Below, piece by piece: positions 1,734 to 9,059 of a stretch of 31,039 nt of DNA. Positions within the stretch are counted from its first letter, which is position 1. Each line of letters starts with the position of its first letter. A program made the position numbers and the translations under genes. The stretch is from a virus, in IMG/VR virus record IMGVR_UViG_3300002514_000036, positions 1 through 31,039 of that record. One strand, written 5' to 3'. The notes under the pieces were generated by a model that saw nothing but the letters and a program-made list of their open reading frames with translations, did no database searches and was not told the origin of the DNA.

Positions 1734-2510
1734 ATGAGTGAAAAAACACAAGAGCCAAAGGAAAAAGCTGATAAGTTCAAGAAATTATCAGAACAAGAGA
1801 TCATTGATAACATTTTAGCTAACATGCCTTCTTCTGAGGAAGTTGCGGTAGAGCTTCCGTCAAAAAATAAATTTTACACCCTGAAAGATTCATCAAAGCC
1901 TATCTCTCTTCGGCCCATGACCTTTGAGGATGAACGAGCAATGATGAGCAAAAAAAATGTTAATGTTGATGTTCTTAATACTTTGTTAGCTAGGTGTGTA
2001 AGTAACATTGATGTGGGGGCGTTGCTTCAAATGGACAAGCTCTTTCTGATTATGAAGTTGAGAGAGATTTCCTACGGTGAAAAGTATAATGCTGCTATTA
2101 ATTGTAACTCCTGTAAAAGGGATAATGCTATTACATTCCAACTCAATGCTTTGCCTGTTACCTATGTTGAGGATGATTTAAATGAGCCGATTACAATTCA
2201 TTTATCTGTATTAGAAAAAGATGTAAAAGTTAGATTCCCCAGGGTTCAAGATGAAAACTATTTTTCTAATGCTGATCAGGCTATAACTAATTTGTGGAGA
2301 TTTGTTGAAGAAATTGATGGACACGCTGAAAAGAGTGTTATTTCTAAAGTTCTTCCACAATTACCTCTGCAAGATGCTCATACTCTTTTGGATGGGATGT
2401 CTGCATCCAAATATGGAGTGGACACAAAAGTACGCTTTGTGTGCAATTATTGCAGTCATAACGAAGTAATGGAGTTACCGATCACGGCTGATTTTTTTAC
2501 AGGGAAATAG
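1734..2510 (+). CDS. T4 gp26-like baseplate/tail assembly protein with zinc ribbon (0-frame product)
   Basis: 258 aa. It resembles the T4 baseplate hub protein family (gp26/gp51, Pfam T4_baseplate): a hydrophilic N-terminus, then LRPMTFEDERAM, then a core with two CxxC pairs, CNSC (near residue 124) and CNYC (near residue 243), that would form a split zinc ribbon. Family members help assemble the baseplate hub and are not all found in the mature virion. It is the first plus-strand gene after the divergent helicase, with a clear AGGAG SD seven bases before ATG. The last codons contain a run of seven T at the ideal frame for -1 slippage, so this is probably the shorter of two products, as with gpG of lambda-type tails. 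The zinc ribbon and family call are fairly secure; the exact T4 equivalent is not. Confidence 0.8.
   Translation: MSEKTQEPKEKADKFKKLSEQEIIDNILANMPSSEEVAVELPSKNKFYTLKDSSKPISLRPMTFEDERAMMSKKNVNVDVLNTLLARCVSNIDVGALLQMDKLFLIMKLREISYGEKYNAAINCNSCKRDNAITFQLNALPVTYVEDDLNEPITIHLSVLEKDVKVRFPRVQDENYFSNADQAITNLWRFVEEIDGHAEKSVISKVLPQLPLQDAHTLLDGMSASKYGVDTKVRFVCNYCSHNEVMELPITADFFTGK
2492..2498 (+). promoter_or_regulatory. -1 ribosomal frameshift slippery site T TTT TTT
   Basis: Seven T follow GA in the order GA-T TTT TTT ACA GGG AAA TAG, with the 0-frame codons TTT TTT. Both tRNA-Phe can re-pair perfectly after a one-base backward slip. The -1 frame is closed by TGA at 2489-2491 immediately upstream, and the 0 frame is closed by TAG at 2508-2510, so the two frames share only 2492-2507 and the slippery run lies exactly in that window. 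A GGAG lies 17 bases upstream (2471-2474). A 9-bp stem-loop with three G-T pairs (2513-2521 with 2527-2535) follows 14 bases downstream; both are possible stimulators with looser spacing than usual. Confidence 0.8.
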
Positions 2511-2692
2511 TTGGGTCTTTTAAATTAAAAGATCTGCTATATGAAGCCTATATACTTGTAAAGCACTCCAACTTCACCTATGGTGATGTAAAGGAGATGG
2601 CTCGATCAGAACGGGCTATTTTCTTAGAATTCTTAACCCAAGAGATAGAAGAGCAAAACAATGCAAGTAAACACCACAACAGTCGTAGATAG
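2492..2692 (+). CDS. -1 frame extension of the gp26-like protein (frameshift product C-terminus)
   Basis: After the slip the -1 frame continues for 64 codons (2498-2689) to TAG at 2690-2692, giving a fused protein of about 319 aa. The extension begins YREIVGSFKLKDLLYEAYIL and contains FTYGDVKEMARSERAIFLEF, a helical segment ending in charged residues. It has no plausible start of its own: there is no ATG/GTG/TTG with SD, and its only ATG would leave about 30 residues. The YGD-x-M-x-R-E-R-x-x-FL pattern recalls short second-frame segments of tail assembly chaperones (the T part of gpGT), but that is pattern memory, not a search. It overlaps the start of the next gene by 32 bases. The long/short pair is expected to load onto the tape measure during tail assembly. 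Confidence 0.75.
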   Translation, partial: FFYREIVGSFKLKDLLYEAYILVKHSNFTYGDVKEMARSERAIFLEFLTQEIEEQNNASKHHNSRR

Positions 2693-3632
2693 AGGGAACA
2701 GACCTAATGTTAGCCAAATAGTAGGGTTACGAACTTATTTCATTAATGATGGAGCCTATGTAGATCCTTATGAAATAAGTAGTGTGCAACTATTTAGAAA
2801 AGGAGATACCCTGACACCTCTAAGTGTCACGGGTACTGACGGGTTAGTGACCGCAACACCTAAAATGGCTTTTGCTGCCTATGGTACTAATCCAAATGGA
2901 ACTATGGCCCACTGTACTATTACCGCAGGTACTGATGTAGGCACCCCTTGTGAAGATGCTTTTAATGTTACTAATTATATTCCCGCAGTAACGGCTAGTG
3001 GAATCTATAGGATGGGACAAGGGGAGTATGTTGTTGTTTTAGATCAAACCTTGGCTTTATCGGGGTGGGACTATACTACCAGTACTCAAGTTGCCGCTGC
3101 TAGTTTATCTGCTGTTAATGATTATGTTGATCTATGGACGGTAAAACTAAACTCTGCTTCTAAGTATCAAGTAATTACGAATCAGTTTTCATTAAACGAA
3201 GATACCTTCTTTGCTTTCACTGAACCCCTTCTCTTAAATACTTCTAACAAGCTTATGAATAAGCATGTTAGGCTAGGAGAAACAATTGACCTTAAAGTTA
3301 CAACAGAAACCACAATCCAAAATCATGACATACCTAAGAATGTCCAAGATATTTTTAAAGATTCGGTTATAACGGATGCTGCGGTGAGCATTAAAAAAGT
3401 AAATCAAGATGTTGCTTTTGCTGGGCCATTTGAAGCAATCACAAATGGGGCTATGACCATTACTAAAGATAATACCCTAATCTATAATTGGCCTACAAAT
3501 AATTTAAAAAATCTTACATCGTTTACAAATGGAACTTTCGGAAGTTTAACAGGGACCTATAGTGTACAGGTGAAGTATACCTTGTTAAATGAATATATAT
3601 TAAGCCCACTGTTTTATCTCACAGTGTCGTAA
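2661..3632 (+). CDS. putative virion structural protein, unknown family
   Basis: 323 aa, rich in Thr, Asn, Val and Ala with few Cys and many alternating beta-type stretches, as is usual for phage capsid or tail surface proteins. It opens MQVNTTTVVDRGNRPNVSQI and ends in a beta-like tail (YSVQVKYTLLNEYILSPLFY). No signal peptide, membrane helix or catalytic motif was seen. Its ATG lies inside the frameshift extension of the gp26-like gene, so it is in the same transcript. Its 3' end overlaps the convergent primase gene by 14 bases, and a rho-independent terminator lies about 110 bases downstream. I do not recognise the family; a baseplate, neck or tail decoration role would fit the position, but this is inference. 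Confidence 0.7.
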   Translation: MQVNTTTVVDRGNRPNVSQIVGLRTYFINDGAYVDPYEISSVQLFRKGDTLTPLSVTGTDGLVTATPKMAFAAYGTNPNGTMAHCTITAGTDVGTPCEDAFNVTNYIPAVTASGIYRMGQGEYVVVLDQTLALSGWDYTTSTQVAAASLSAVNDYVDLWTVKLNSASKYQVITNQFSLNEDTFFAFTEPLLLNTSNKLMNKHVRLGETIDLKVTTETTIQNHDIPKNVQDIFKDSVITDAAVSIKKVNQDVAFAGPFEAITNGAMTITKDNTLIYNWPTNNLKNLTSFTNGTFGSLTGTYSVQVKYTLLNEYILSPLFYLTVS

Positions 3633-4605
3633 GGAGGTGATTCATGAGATAGTCGTAATCATACTTTTTAGTATGATCGGTGACAAATCTACTTAGGTCG
3701 GTGCCCTTAATGTGGGCATCATTCCAATCGTTTACTTCTGAAGGAGGATGGCAAATGTAGAGATTTGCCATCCTTTTTATGCGTCTGAGGTAGTCGAACT
3801 TGTTTACCCCTCTTTTTCCCGCATCATCATTATCATACCCGATAATTATTTTACCTTCAAATTCTTTAAGAGCTTCTACTTGGTACTCGGAGACAGAACA
3901 CCCCATAGTACAAGTAGCATTAATCCCCTGAATCTGGAGAGAGACAGCATCTAACGGTCCTTCACAGACTACTAAATGGTCAGCCTCTGTGTCATATGGA
4001 TATAGGATGTGAGAAGGCTTAGGCCAGCCTTCTGAGGGGTTAAGGTATTTAGGTGTCTCGTCGCCCAGAGTACGGGCCTGAAAGTAAAAAATTTCCGAAT
4101 CTTCTTCAAACGGAATAATTAACCGTCCTTTGTATCGGCCCTGGGTGGACACATAATACTTAGATTCCCCTGTGTCTAAATTAAAGAGACCGCGTTCGTA
4201 TAAGAAGGTCCACGCTTTTTGCATGAGGGGGTCTTCAGTCTCATAGTCCTCTACAGTTACAGGGGTAAGATGCAGATCTTCTCTTTCGGCCCTCGGTGCG
4301 GAGATTTTTATTTCTAACTTTTTCGGGAAATCCCCTTCTAGGTCTTTAAAGAGGAGAGCGGCTTCTGCTTGATTATATGTAATACTTTCTAGGAAAGCAT
4401 AGATCTGGACGAAGTTACCTCTATTTCCACTCTTAAAGCATTGCCACAGACCACTATCTAAGTTAATGCTCATGTGGCGTTTGTAGTCATCAGAGATAAA
4501 TACAGAGGGTACGATTAGCTCTGTATCCCCAGAGGACAATCTATAGTTATCCTTGAACTTCTCAAGTAAGTAGTCTCTAATAAACTGAGGTGCAACTATG
4601 TTCAT
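3619..4605 (-). CDS. DnaG-type primase with Toprim domain and degenerate zinc finger
   Basis: 328 aa from ATG 4605. The N-terminal part aligns in layout with the zinc-binding domain of DnaG primases (SINLDSGLWQCFKSGNRGNF, residues 46-65) but only one of the usual four ligands, C56, remains. The RNA polymerase-like region follows (GRLIIPF at 160-166, KYLNP at 186-190). The Toprim fold then shows CEGPLDA (E215) and YDNDDAG (D258, D260), the acidic triad that binds metal. It would make RNA primers for lagging-strand synthesis, as T4 gp61 does with the gp41 helicase. A TTG at 4641 would add 12 residues, but the ATG is preferred; it overlaps the start of the divergent nuclease gene by eight bases. 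Codons are richer in G/C at third positions than in the tail genes. Confidence 0.85.
   Translation of the reverse strand: MNIVAPQFIRDYLLEKFKDNYRLSSGDTELIVPSVFISDDYKRHMSINLDSGLWQCFKSGNRGNFVQIYAFLESITYNQAEAALLFKDLEGDFPKKLEIKISAPRAEREDLHLTPVTVEDYETEDPLMQKAWTFLYERGLFNLDTGESKYYVSTQGRYKGRLIIPFEEDSEIFYFQARTLGDETPKYLNPSEGWPKPSHILYPYDTEADHLVVCEGPLDAVSLQIQGINATCTMGCSVSEYQVEALKEFEGKIIIGYDNDDAGKRGVNKFDYLRRIKRMANLYICHPPSEVNDWNDAHIKGTDLSRFVTDHTKKYDYDYLMNHLLTTL
3630..3652 (+). promoter_or_regulatory. near-perfect Shine-Dalgarno followed by a two-codon minigene
   Basis: TAAGGAGGTGATT (3630-3642) matches the complement of the 16S rRNA 3' end over about 12 bases and is placed six bases before ATG AGA TAG (3644-3652). 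It starts at the stop codon of the 323-aa protein. It is far stronger than any other ribosome site in the window yet leads nowhere. It is also the antisense of the codons for the last residues of the primase, so it may be chance, a minigene, or the fossil start of a gene lost when the primase cassette arrived. Confidence 0.4.
3741..3778 (+). terminator. rho-independent terminator inside the primase gene (antisense)
   Basis: AGGATGGCAAAT (3745-3756), loop GTAGAG, ATTTGCCATCCT (3763-3774): a perfect 12-bp stem, extendable by four pairs, running directly into TTTTT (3774-3778). The T-run is on the plus strand only. It would end transcripts from the gp26-like/323-aa genes about 110-145 bases beyond the last stop, within DNA coding for primase residues 279-290 on the other strand. 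Confidence 0.8.
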
Positions 4606-5377
4606 AAATACAATTTCCGAATCAAAATCCAAGACATTCAAAGAATGTCAACTTAAGTACCGTTATCGGTACATTGATCGTTTTAAAGAGGGGGATCGAA
4701 ATACTGACCCGCTTCACTTTGGTTCGTTCATACATAAAATCTTTGAGGATGGCTTTGAGGCAAAGAGCCTTGCCGACCTCACTGTTATAGCGGAAAGTGC
4801 TAAAAAGGACTACACTTTCTCGGAATCTTATGCTCCTAAGACCAAGAAGTGCTTAGAGAACTTCCTGCGTTTTAATGCCACCTTGGCAGAAACGGTGGCT
4901 ACTGAAATGGTCTACGAGATTATCCATGATAAAGAAAAGGATATTAAGCTCAACGGGATCATTGACCGTGTGATTAAAGGCAAGGATGGAGGGTATCTTG
5001 TAATCGACTACAAAACCTCTAAAAGGGAGCTATCTGAATTGGACCTGTACCAGGACAGACAGATGCAGGGGTATGCTTATGCGGTACACAAGTTGCTAGG
5101 AGTGCCCTTGAGTGACATTGTGGTGGCTCACTACTACCCCGTCACCAATAACTTTGTCACATGTAAGTATTCTGCGAACCAGATTAGGCATTACCTTAGA
5201 GAGAAGGTTGATCAAATCTGGAAGATTAGAAAAATGAAGAAGGCTGAGTTTCAAGCCATGCAGAATCAGTTCTGCAACTGGTGTGGCTACAAGAACATCT
5301 GTCCTGAGTTTAACTCTGGTAGACTCTGTGAAGAGCGTATGCAGCAGTTAAAGAATACCAAACGCACCAAGAAGTAA
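4598..5377 (+). CDS. PD-(D/E)XK nuclease with Cas4/AddB-type iron-sulphur cysteines
   Basis: 259 aa. The RecB-like nuclease motifs are in order: GSFIH (H46), GIIDRV (D123), VIDYKT (D137, K139) and the QMQGYAYA box (Q157, Y159). Four cysteines are placed as in Cas4, AddB and eukaryotic Dna2: C17 near the N-terminus and C-x2-C-x5-C at C226, C229 and C235, which in those families hold a 4Fe-4S cluster that locks the fold. Such enzymes trim or resect DNA ends; in phages they are expected in recombination, end processing or host DNA degradation. The start is ATG 4598 with GAGGTG six bases upstream. It is transcribed divergently from the primase with an eight-base overlap and convergent with the tiny membrane protein downstream. 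No cas1/cas2 or repeat array is near, so a CRISPR role is not supported. Confidence 0.85.
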   Translation: MFINTISESKSKTFKECQLKYRYRYIDRFKEGDRNTDPLHFGSFIHKIFEDGFEAKSLADLTVIAESAKKDYTFSESYAPKTKKCLENFLRFNATLAETVATEMVYEIIHDKEKDIKLNGIIDRVIKGKDGGYLVIDYKTSKRELSELDLYQDRQMQGYAYAVHKLLGVPLSDIVVAHYYPVTNNFVTCKYSANQIRHYLREKVDQIWKIRKMKKAEFQAMQNQFCNWCGYKNICPEFNSGRLCEERMQQLKNTKRTKK

Positions 5378-6257: not shown

Positions 6258-9059
6258 ATGGCCCCTCCCCCCGAAGACTCCCCAGACCTAGAACAGAGCT
6301 TAAGAGACATTGCAACAGCTTTAGCTGGTCTAACTCCTGTGTTACAGGAGATAGCAGATTCAGAAGTGGAGCAATTGGAGAAGGCTGATGGCTTGGGGAA
6401 AATAAATAAAAAGAGTTATCTTTCATTAGTAAGACAGGCTAAAGCCATTCCTATAGTAGGTAAAGCTGTTACAATGGGATCTCAGGAGATTGTTGCCGCT
6501 GTTAAGGGTAGCATGCAAATGCAGGAGAAAGCTCTTTCTAGAGGATTAAACTTAACCAAGGTTATGGAGCAGCAATCTGCTACTACAACTTATCTAACAG
6601 AAGGCATAACTGGGTATGGGAAAGCTCTTGAGATAGGTTGGGAACAGTTTGCAGCAGGTTCAAGAAGATCCAATAAAGCCACGGATTTACTCCTTGCACA
6701 AACCAAGCTTACAGGAGGCAACTCTCTAAAGTTAATGAAAGAGATGCAGGGATTAACTGCTGGAACTTTAATGTCTAATGAGCAACAAACTAATCTTCAT
6801 AGCTCCATTCAATCTTTAAGCCAAAGATTTGGAATGACTACGGAGGAGTTAGTGGGGGCGATTGGAGAATTAAAAGGTTCCATGAAGATGTATTCTCTTC
6901 TTAATATTGGACCTGAGATTTTAGAAGCGGGTGCTGCAATTGGTGCTGCTCTTGGTCCAGAAATGGCTAAGTCTGGTACTAAATTTTTAGATTCTATGTT
7001 ATCAGCAGAAGGGGCCATTACAGCAGGGATGTTAGGGGTGAGTGCAGACAGGGAAGCTCTTCTGAAAGGTGAAGGGGATGCAACTAGAAATGCCCTGATG
7101 ATGGTTGAATCTGCGGGTAGGGCGGCTCATGATATGTACCAGTCTTATTTGCAGGGCTCAGGAGACCCTGCAATCGCGTACAAGGCTGTTTCTGATGCTC
7201 TTGGTCCTGCTATGGCTGAGGGAGCTATGGTCTATAAGGGGATGAAAGAGGAGGCTGACAGGATGGGCATGACCATGAGCAACTATAGTAAAATGGTTGC
7301 AGAGAGAACTGCTGTTAGTAAGGAATTTGCAACTACTTGGCAATCTATAAAAGATGAAGCGTTTAGTCCTTTAATAGAGAAAATTACTCAAACGGTTGGG
7401 TGGATTACTGAGTTTGTAAAAGCTCATCGTGAATTGACAGTGAGGATCGTCCAAGTTGGAGGAATCCTTGCAATAATTGCAGGGCTTCTAATTGCTGGAT
7501 TAGCAGTACAAAAAGCTAAGGGCATAGCTAAGAGTGTGAAAGGGGCTCTTGGAGGAGATGCGGCTCAGGGTGCTGGTAAGGCTGCTGGTAAGGCTGGTGG
7601 GGGCTTTGGAAAAAGTCTTTCAAGTTTAGGAAAAGGTCTAGCTAATTTAGGAAAAGGAATTGGAGGGGGAGTAGGTGCTTTAATACAAAAAACTCTTCTA
7701 GGGATTGGACAGGGTTTATCTTCTTTAGGAAAAGGGCTTGGAGGAGGAATAGAGGCTTTAATATCTAAATCTCTGAGGGGAATTGCCAAGGGAGTTGGAT
7801 ATTTTGCTAATCCAAAGGTTTTACTGGGTGCATTAGGAATCTTAGCCGTAGGGGCTGCTCTTATTCCTCTAGCCTTTGCCCTAACATTAGTAAAAGATGT
7901 GGGGATAGGAGCTATGTTAGCCTTTGCAGGAGCCCTGGTTGTTTTCGGTTTAGCGGCAGTGGGCTTCGGCTTTATCGCGCCACTCATCGGTGTAGGATCA
8001 TTAGCTATCCTAGGATTAGGACTTGCTCTTATTCCACTAGCGTACTCTTTAAAACTAATAGCTGGGGTGGGGATAGATACAATGTTTGCCTTTGCAGGAG
8101 CCCTGGTTGTTCTAGGTGTTACGGCTGCTGGGTTAGCCTTTATTTCACCTTTTATCATTATGGGGTCAATAGCTATAGCAGCATTAGGACTTGCTCTTCT
8201 TCCTCTAGCAATGGCTATAGCTACTGCCGCACCAGGACTTGAACAATTAGCTGTTGTAATGACTGCATTAGCAGGAGTTTCTATAACGAGTCTTTTCCTA
8301 TTAGGTCCTGCTTTATTCTCTGTTGCAGCAGGATTGTCTGCACTTTCCGCAGGAGGGGCCGTCTCTGGATTCTTCTCCATGTTTACGAAAGGAGATGATC
8401 CTATAGAAAAACTAGTAAAGATGGGAAAAGCTGCTAAACATATTAATAAATTAGTAGACTCTCTTAATAAACTTCCTGCTGCAATAAATGCAACAGCAAC
8501 TGGTTTAGGAAACCTCTCTATGGATGATGTTGAAAAAATGGGAAAAATGGGTGAAGCTGTTAGTAAGGGAGGAACTGCTAGTCATTTCAAGAAAAATAGG
8601 AATCCCTATGTGGAAAGGATACTGCAAAGGGAGTATGCAGATACTGACCGAATGAAATTGAACGATGCGAAAATGAAGGCTGGAATTGGTCCTGGCTTGG
8701 CTGCTCAAAGTGCTTATTCCACAATGAAGAGGAACAGCCCTATGAACCTCTATGGTGATTCCTCTCCTGTATCTAAAGCAGAGAACATAAGAAATCTTCA
8801 GGCAGATATTGCAGAATCTAAGCGTGAGGAGACTTTGTACGAGGATGAATTTATGGTAGAAGTCATTAAAGAGCAAACACAAATGCTTGAGCTAGTACTA
8901 AATAAATTAGTAGAAGGAAATGATCAGAGAGCAGATGGATTAGAGCAAGGGTCTCACAGTATTAATCAAAGAAACCGACAAATAGCTAATAGTAGAGTTT
9001 CTCCTGGTGTAGAAAGACGATCTATGGGACAGGGTTTAGTGGGGAACATTGATGGCTAA
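6258..9059 (+). CDS. tail tape measure protein
   Basis: 933 aa. The protein has a helical N-terminal part, a long Ala/Gly-rich middle with Gly-Lys repeats (residues 464-489 and 490-515, LGKGIGGGVGALI / LGKGLGGGIEALI), then several strongly hydrophobic segments (about 520-700) and a charged C-terminus. This is the usual composition of tape measures that set tail length inside the tube and pass into the host membrane. By the rule of about 1.5 A per residue it would measure a tail of roughly 140 nm. A second tandem repeat of 56 residues lies in the hydrophobic part (FAGALVV at 556 and 612). AGGA seven bases before ATG supports the start. It is followed by LysM-type baseplate proteins, the expected order. 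The large minus-strand reading frames within it are antisense shadows of the Gly/Ala codons. Confidence 0.8.
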   Translation: MAPPPEDSPDLEQSLRDIATALAGLTPVLQEIADSEVEQLEKADGLGKINKKSYLSLVRQAKAIPIVGKAVTMGSQEIVAAVKGSMQMQEKALSRGLNLTKVMEQQSATTTYLTEGITGYGKALEIGWEQFAAGSRRSNKATDLLLAQTKLTGGNSLKLMKEMQGLTAGTLMSNEQQTNLHSSIQSLSQRFGMTTEELVGAIGELKGSMKMYSLLNIGPEILEAGAAIGAALGPEMAKSGTKFLDSMLSAEGAITAGMLGVSADREALLKGEGDATRNALMMVESAGRAAHDMYQSYLQGSGDPAIAYKAVSDALGPAMAEGAMVYKGMKEEADRMGMTMSNYSKMVAERTAVSKEFATTWQSIKDEAFSPLIEKITQTVGWITEFVKAHRELTVRIVQVGGILAIIAGLLIAGLAVQKAKGIAKSVKGALGGDAAQGAGKAAGKAGGGFGKSLSSLGKGLANLGKGIGGGVGALIQKTLLGIGQGLSSLGKGLGGGIEALISKSLRGIAKGVGYFANPKVLLGALGILAVGAALIPLAFALTLVKDVGIGAMLAFAGALVVFGLAAVGFGFIAPLIGVGSLAILGLGLALIPLAYSLKLIAGVGIDTMFAFAGALVVLGVTAAGLAFISPFIIMGSIAIAALGLALLPLAMAIATAAPGLEQLAVVMTALAGVSITSLFLLGPALFSVAAGLSALSAGGAVSGFFSMFTKGDDPIEKLVKMGKAAKHINKLVDSLNKLPAAINATATGLGNLSMDDVEKMGKMGEAVSKGGTASHFKKNRNPYVERILQREYADTDRMKLNDAKMKAGIGPGLAAQSAYSTMKRNSPMNLYGDSSPVSKAENIRNLQADIAESKREETLYEDEFMVEVIKEQTQMLELVLNKLVEGNDQRADGLEQGSHSINQRNRQIANSRVSPGVERRSMGQGLVGNIDG
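7647..8111 (+). repeat. tandem in-frame repeats in the tape measure gene
   Basis: Two repeat types. A 78-base (26-codon) unit occurs twice from 7647. A 168-base (56-codon) unit is marked by an identical 23-mer core (CCTTTGCAGGAGCCCTGGTT plus GTT) at 7921-7943 and 8089-8111. The near-identity at DNA level of the 56-codon core suggests a recent duplication; gain or loss of units would change tail length in whole steps. Confidence 0.7.

Follow-up and report, generated by a model that had tools for sequence, protein, structure and literature searches.

We consider it highly probable that the gene at positions 1734–2510 of the window, the whole stretch of 31,039 nucleotides of viral DNA analysed here, makes two tail-assembly chaperones, one short and one long, the long one by a −1 slip that adds a T4 gp51-type domain. 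One gene would yield both proteins, as a fraction of its ribosomes would move back by one base on seven Ts. The features that bear on this reading are as follows.

1734–2510, + strand: short-product ORF (TAC-N), 258 aa, 0-frame; T4 gp26-type, PF12322, with two CxxC zinc-ribbon-like motifs
2472–2475, + strand: GGAG, 16 nt ahead of the heptamer; might stimulate slippage as an internal Shine-Dalgarno element
2492–2498, + strand: slippery heptamer T TTT TTT, for a putative tandem slip of P- and A-site tRNA-Phe to −1
2492–2507, + strand: 16-nt overlap with both frames open, bounded by TGA 2489–2491 and TAG 2508–2510
2492–2692, + strand: −1-frame ORF, putative C-terminal extension (TAC-C) of the T4 gp51 C-terminal type; phrog_634 match, frame kept in 59 relatives
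2507–2540, + strand: stem-loop, probable stimulator, 5+10 bp, −12.3 kcal/mol, z −1.98; includes the 0-frame stop
2508–2510, + strand: TAG, short-product stop in the 0-frame reading
2661–3632, + strand: neighbouring downstream gene, 323 aa, matching no family; shares 32 nt at its start with the −1 ORF
6258–9059, + strand: 933-aa ORF, likely tape measure protein

The 258-aa protein matched the PF12322 T4_baseplate profile with 71.2 bits (curated cut-off 24.5) over residues 49–255 and profile positions 7–218 of 219, and phrog_150 'baseplate hub' at 3e-23. A search of the 52.6 kb record for a second gp26-type copy found none, and no other gene in it matches PF12322. Profile scans gave no homology to lambda gpG, and a match to Phage_TAC_7 (PF10109) remained below the cut-off. 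The AlphaFold2 model of TAC-N had a pLDDT of 82, and a PDB fold search with it returned no match at E ≤ 0.001; a weak fold match to YqbN (3klu, E 1.5) was left unused. A sequence-profile search against the PDB also returned no match.

The 0-frame ends in GAT (2490–2492) TTT TTT (2493–2498) ACA GGG AAA TAG (2508–2510), with the heptamer in register for tandem −1 slippage. As the last stop of the −1 frame is the TGA at 2489–2491 and the 0-frame stops at 2508–2510, the overlap is exactly 16 nt long. The first-pass annotation, made from the letters of the window, had placed T TTT TTT inside such a 16-base double-open stretch, and the coordinates bear this out. Among the 20 ORFs checked in the window, this gene is the only one with a slippery heptamer in a −1 overlap. 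Together with the presence of the heptamer in all 59 distinct relatives (see below), this places the slip site beyond chance.

From the heptamer onwards, the −1 frame reads FF + YREIVGSFKLKDLLYEAYILVKHSNFTYGDVKEMARSERAIFLEFLTQEIEEQNNASKHHNSRR (64 codons; stop TAG 2690–2692). Its earliest ATG, GTG or TTG is codon 35 (ATG at ~2597), which lies within the conserved domain. The frame is thus as first described, 64 codons without a start of its own, ending past the ATG of the next gene. The extension matched phrog_634 'baseplate hub assembly catalyst', the T4 gp51 family, with an E-value of 1.5e-4; the TAC-C peptide had no match in Pfam. With this gp51-family extension, the two products would be TAC-N and TAC-NC.

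Scans of IMG/VR yielded 59 distinct marine relatives with 43–100% identity. Heptamer, stop spacing and second frame are kept jointly in 59/59, although as the clade shares ancestry these counts are not independent trials: T TTT TTT occurs in 33 and T TTT TTC in 26, FF always begins exactly five codons ahead of the 0-frame stop, and the −1 ORF always extends 54–62 codons beyond that stop. The codon that precedes FF ends in T in all 59, against a background of 72% for Asp and 68% for Asn. TTT encodes the first Phe in all 59 as well (background 78%). An alignment of homologues had been proposed in the first-pass annotation as a check on joint conservation of the T run and the second frame, and the two are indeed kept jointly. 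It had also named homologues in which the second frame is missing, or has a strong start of its own, as evidence against frameshifting; this check did not refute the −1 reading in the window's clade or in KVP40, Aeh1 and the cyanophages. In 40 representatives with <85% identity, which were used for the variability and folding tests, the most variable sites are 0-frame third positions 5′ of the slip site and −1-frame third positions 3′ of it. At the level of sequence, this variability switch is the pattern that a coding −1 frame leaves.

Two candidate stimulators flank the heptamer, both of which had been suggested beforehand. The stem-loop begins 8 nt 3′ of it. In the 40 representatives, the 48-nt segment directly 3′ of the site had a mean z of −1.91 ± 0.25, whereas 20 of 22 control segments had means between −0.52 and +0.25, the exceptions being those at +66 (−1.13) and +96 (−0.69). 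The hairpin signal is therefore specific to the segment directly 3′ of the slip site, and the stem-loop at 2507–2540 is a probable stimulator of slippage. As choosing the best register for each sequence would be circular, the comparison with control segments is the one test from which we argue for the hairpin. A single hairpin register for all relatives was rejected, as registers vary among subclades. A further stretch of below-average folding energy (mean z −1.13) was seen in the relatives ~66–114 nt 3′ of the first Phe codon. The GGAG on the 5′ side is present as proposed, and mean anti-Shine-Dalgarno pairing across the 40 relatives peaks at its position. However, GGAG lies within the codons of a conserved Met/Val-Glu-Leu-Pro stretch, and as this coding constraint accounts for part of the conservation, a stimulatory role of GGAG is no more than suggested.

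The same two domains occur in T4 in another arrangement. T4 gp26 consists of PF12322 alone, and in T4 gp51 PF12322 is followed by a C-terminal part with a phrog_634 match; as both hold PF12322 and gp51 adds the phrog_634-type part, homology identifies them as paralogues, gp26 being the counterpart of the short product and gp51 that of the long one. Genes 26 and 51 are separate and lie on opposite strands, and T4 is without the heptamer: gene 26 ends in GAG TTC TTT GAG, and the junction in gene 51 reads GTG TTT AAG. T TTT TTC or T TTT TTT was found at the gp26 end in KVP40, D479, nt-1, Aeh1, ZPAH1, VmeM32, P-HM1, P-SSM2, BUCT608, S13, DSL-LC02 and S-CAM1, and in all 12 phages the gp51-type domain sits in the −1 frame.

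In some of these phages a start lies at the gp26 stop (TAATG in KVP40 and nt-1, TGATG in BUCT608), and ORFs with such a start are annotated as genes of their own. TAC-C might then be translated on its own, through reinitiation or translational coupling once ribosomes have reached the gp26 stop, and not as a fusion. However, D479, Aeh1, ZPAH1, S13 and S-CAM1 have no start close to that stop, the earliest start in the −1 ORF of the window's clade is mostly at codons 21–22 or 35, within the conserved domain, and reinitiation leaves the invariant T TTT TTY unexplained. We regard a separate TAC-C as very improbable. In one locus (L022, LR756511.1) the −1 frame holds the second domain, but there is no slippery heptamer near the stop, and TAATG occurs at the stop; as its ATG overlaps the stop, this locus may use reinitiation.

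The frames could also be joined by RNA polymerase, rather than the ribosome, as a run of seven Ts is able to slip. This is more improbable still: 26 of the 59 relatives have six Ts only and keep the tandem-slip motif, the T run keeps a fixed phase with respect to the reading frame, and transcriptional slippage needs no downstream hairpin. A sequencing or assembly error, to which homopolymers are prone, is in practice refuted by the identical split in 59 distinct sequences from many metagenomes and in finished phage genomes. Programmed −1 frameshifting at 2492–2498, which the first-pass annotation had proposed for this gp26-family gene, is very likely real and functional, as argued by the co-conservation, the codon-position switch, the lack of a usable start, the stem-loop and the gp51 homology.

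The position of the gene counts against the chaperone reading, as do the lack of a significant match to the fold of any solved tail chaperone and the sub-threshold Phage_TAC_7 score. It lies about 3.7 kb from the 933-aa ORF at 6258–9059, which is likely the tape measure gene by its size, position and hydrophobic stretches and has no profile match, and genes lie between the two, some of them on the minus strand. Replication-type genes occur around and between them at 318–1751 (−), 3619–4641 (−) and 4598–5377 (+); by eye, the sequences suggest a UvsW-like helicase, a toprim/primase-like protein and a Cas4-like nuclease.

The sequences show the two frames, the site, their joint conservation and the homology to T4 gp26 and gp51; we infer the slip at T TTT TTT and its efficiency and, from homology and analogy, the chaperone function of TAC-N and TAC-NC. 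The majority of ribosomes would terminate at 2508–2510 and release the 258-aa gp26-type TAC-N. A minority, with a tRNA-Phe in each of the P and A sites, would slip back one base on the heptamer, assisted by the hairpin and perhaps by GGAG, and would complete TAC-NC, a fusion of about 320 aa that carries the gp51-type domain at its C terminus. If the analogy with lambda gpG/gpGT holds, many copies of TAC-N and few of TAC-NC would coat the tape measure protein, recruit tail-tube subunits and then depart. The slippery sequence of lambda differs from T TTT TTT. Like lambda, the window has a short product and a −1 frameshift-extended product encoded by two overlapping ORFs (PMC5009743; Xu, Hendrix & Duda 2004); unlike in lambda, the likely tape measure gene does not directly follow these ORFs. 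The G–T shift was described as conserved except in T4 by Atkins et al. 2016 (PMC5009743).

A 2022 study by Vladimirov, Gautam and Davidson reportedly names gp26 and gp51 and describes frameshifting in several T4-like groups. According to PMC10885494 and PMC12846349, that study identified the T4-like chaperone genes. The link between the gp26 family and tail chaperones that the first-pass annotation had anticipated is correct and already published; the window's locus adds to a known kind, as T4-like chaperones were reported in 2022. Some T4-like phages are described as having a short gene alongside a long, fused one (PMC10885494), and T4-like TAC-N genes as containing poly-T slip sites (PMC12846349). 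Both the T4-like chaperones and the window combine a PF12322 gene with a gp51-type extension, and KVP40-, Aeh1- and cyanophage-type genomes share the poly-T −1 site of the window, but the window's clade is not part of the T4/KVP40/cyanophage branch of the tree, and T4 has two separate paralogous genes. The chaperone of Pakpunavirus Adele and the Vandenendeviridae likewise has a poly-T −1 site that ends TAC-N and a conserved uninterrupted second frame, although its motif is GTTTTT and the virus family is different (PMC12846349). The frameshifted gp26/gp51 chaperone is now extended to an uncultivated marine clade.

The new part, beyond the known link between gp26 and chaperones, is a probable switch of slip direction within the PF12322 family. 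The second domain lies in the +1 frame in 29 distinct loci, SP-15, LIS04 and GXN1 among them; a scan with the +1-type alignment found no further contigs. The +1 and −1 second domains are homologous in the better-matching members (best E-value 4e-9, in L134, against 0.013 for the best shuffled decoy), whereas several +1 members, SP-15 included, do not outscore the decoys, their link being through +1 neighbours and position. In the +1-type loci with a Phe-Phe pair, the preceding codon never ends in T (GAA, GAG, CAG, GAC, GGC or AAC), the second Phe codon is TTT in 25/28, and the site reads TTT CGN in 18/28. The Arg after the Phe pair is encoded by CGN in 18 of 18 cases, against 77 of 336 Arg codons elsewhere in these genes, where AGA is usual. 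The UUU_CGN +1 motif is also known from plant amalgaviruses. UUU_CGU is given as the +1 site of influenza PA-X in PMC3498833. A +1 tail-chaperone shift at TTT-CGC has been proposed for the HF1-group haloviruses (PMC7230728). This motif agrees with the TTT_CGN of the +1-type gp26 relatives; the haloviruses are archaeal, and the window's gene would shift to −1.

In a tree of 58 sequences, the root of which is arbitrary, the window's clade joins the +1 lineages (99/97), apart from T4, KVP40 and the cyanophages. The +1 label requires three changes on this tree, at least two of which are forced by well-supported branches. As the window's clade groups with +1 lineages and not with T4, PF12322 chaperones have probably switched slip direction two or more times at the same Phe-Phe pair, between −1 at T_TTT_TTY and +1, mostly at UUU_CGN. 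This amounts to a natural experiment in which the dipeptide and the domains are kept and the slip site is recoded backward, forward or, in T4, replaced by two genes. As the same domains occur with −1, +1 and two-gene solutions, selection on the short:long ratio can be directly tested against selection on the mechanism.

Sites other than TTT CGN must exist among the +1 types, as LIS04 has the junction TTT TTT AGT and a subgroup (L145, L148, L150 and L154) reads TTA TTT/TTC AAT CCC AGT or CTA TTC AAT CCC AGT, with no TTT CGN. CCC_A is a candidate slip site in this subgroup. In public annotation, the gp51-type domain appears as a separate gene, truncated or missing. Many records truncate or miss gp51, as seen for Aeh1 (L032), ZPAH1 (L033), S13 (L038), S-CAM1 (L041), D479 (L029) and SP-15 (L021).
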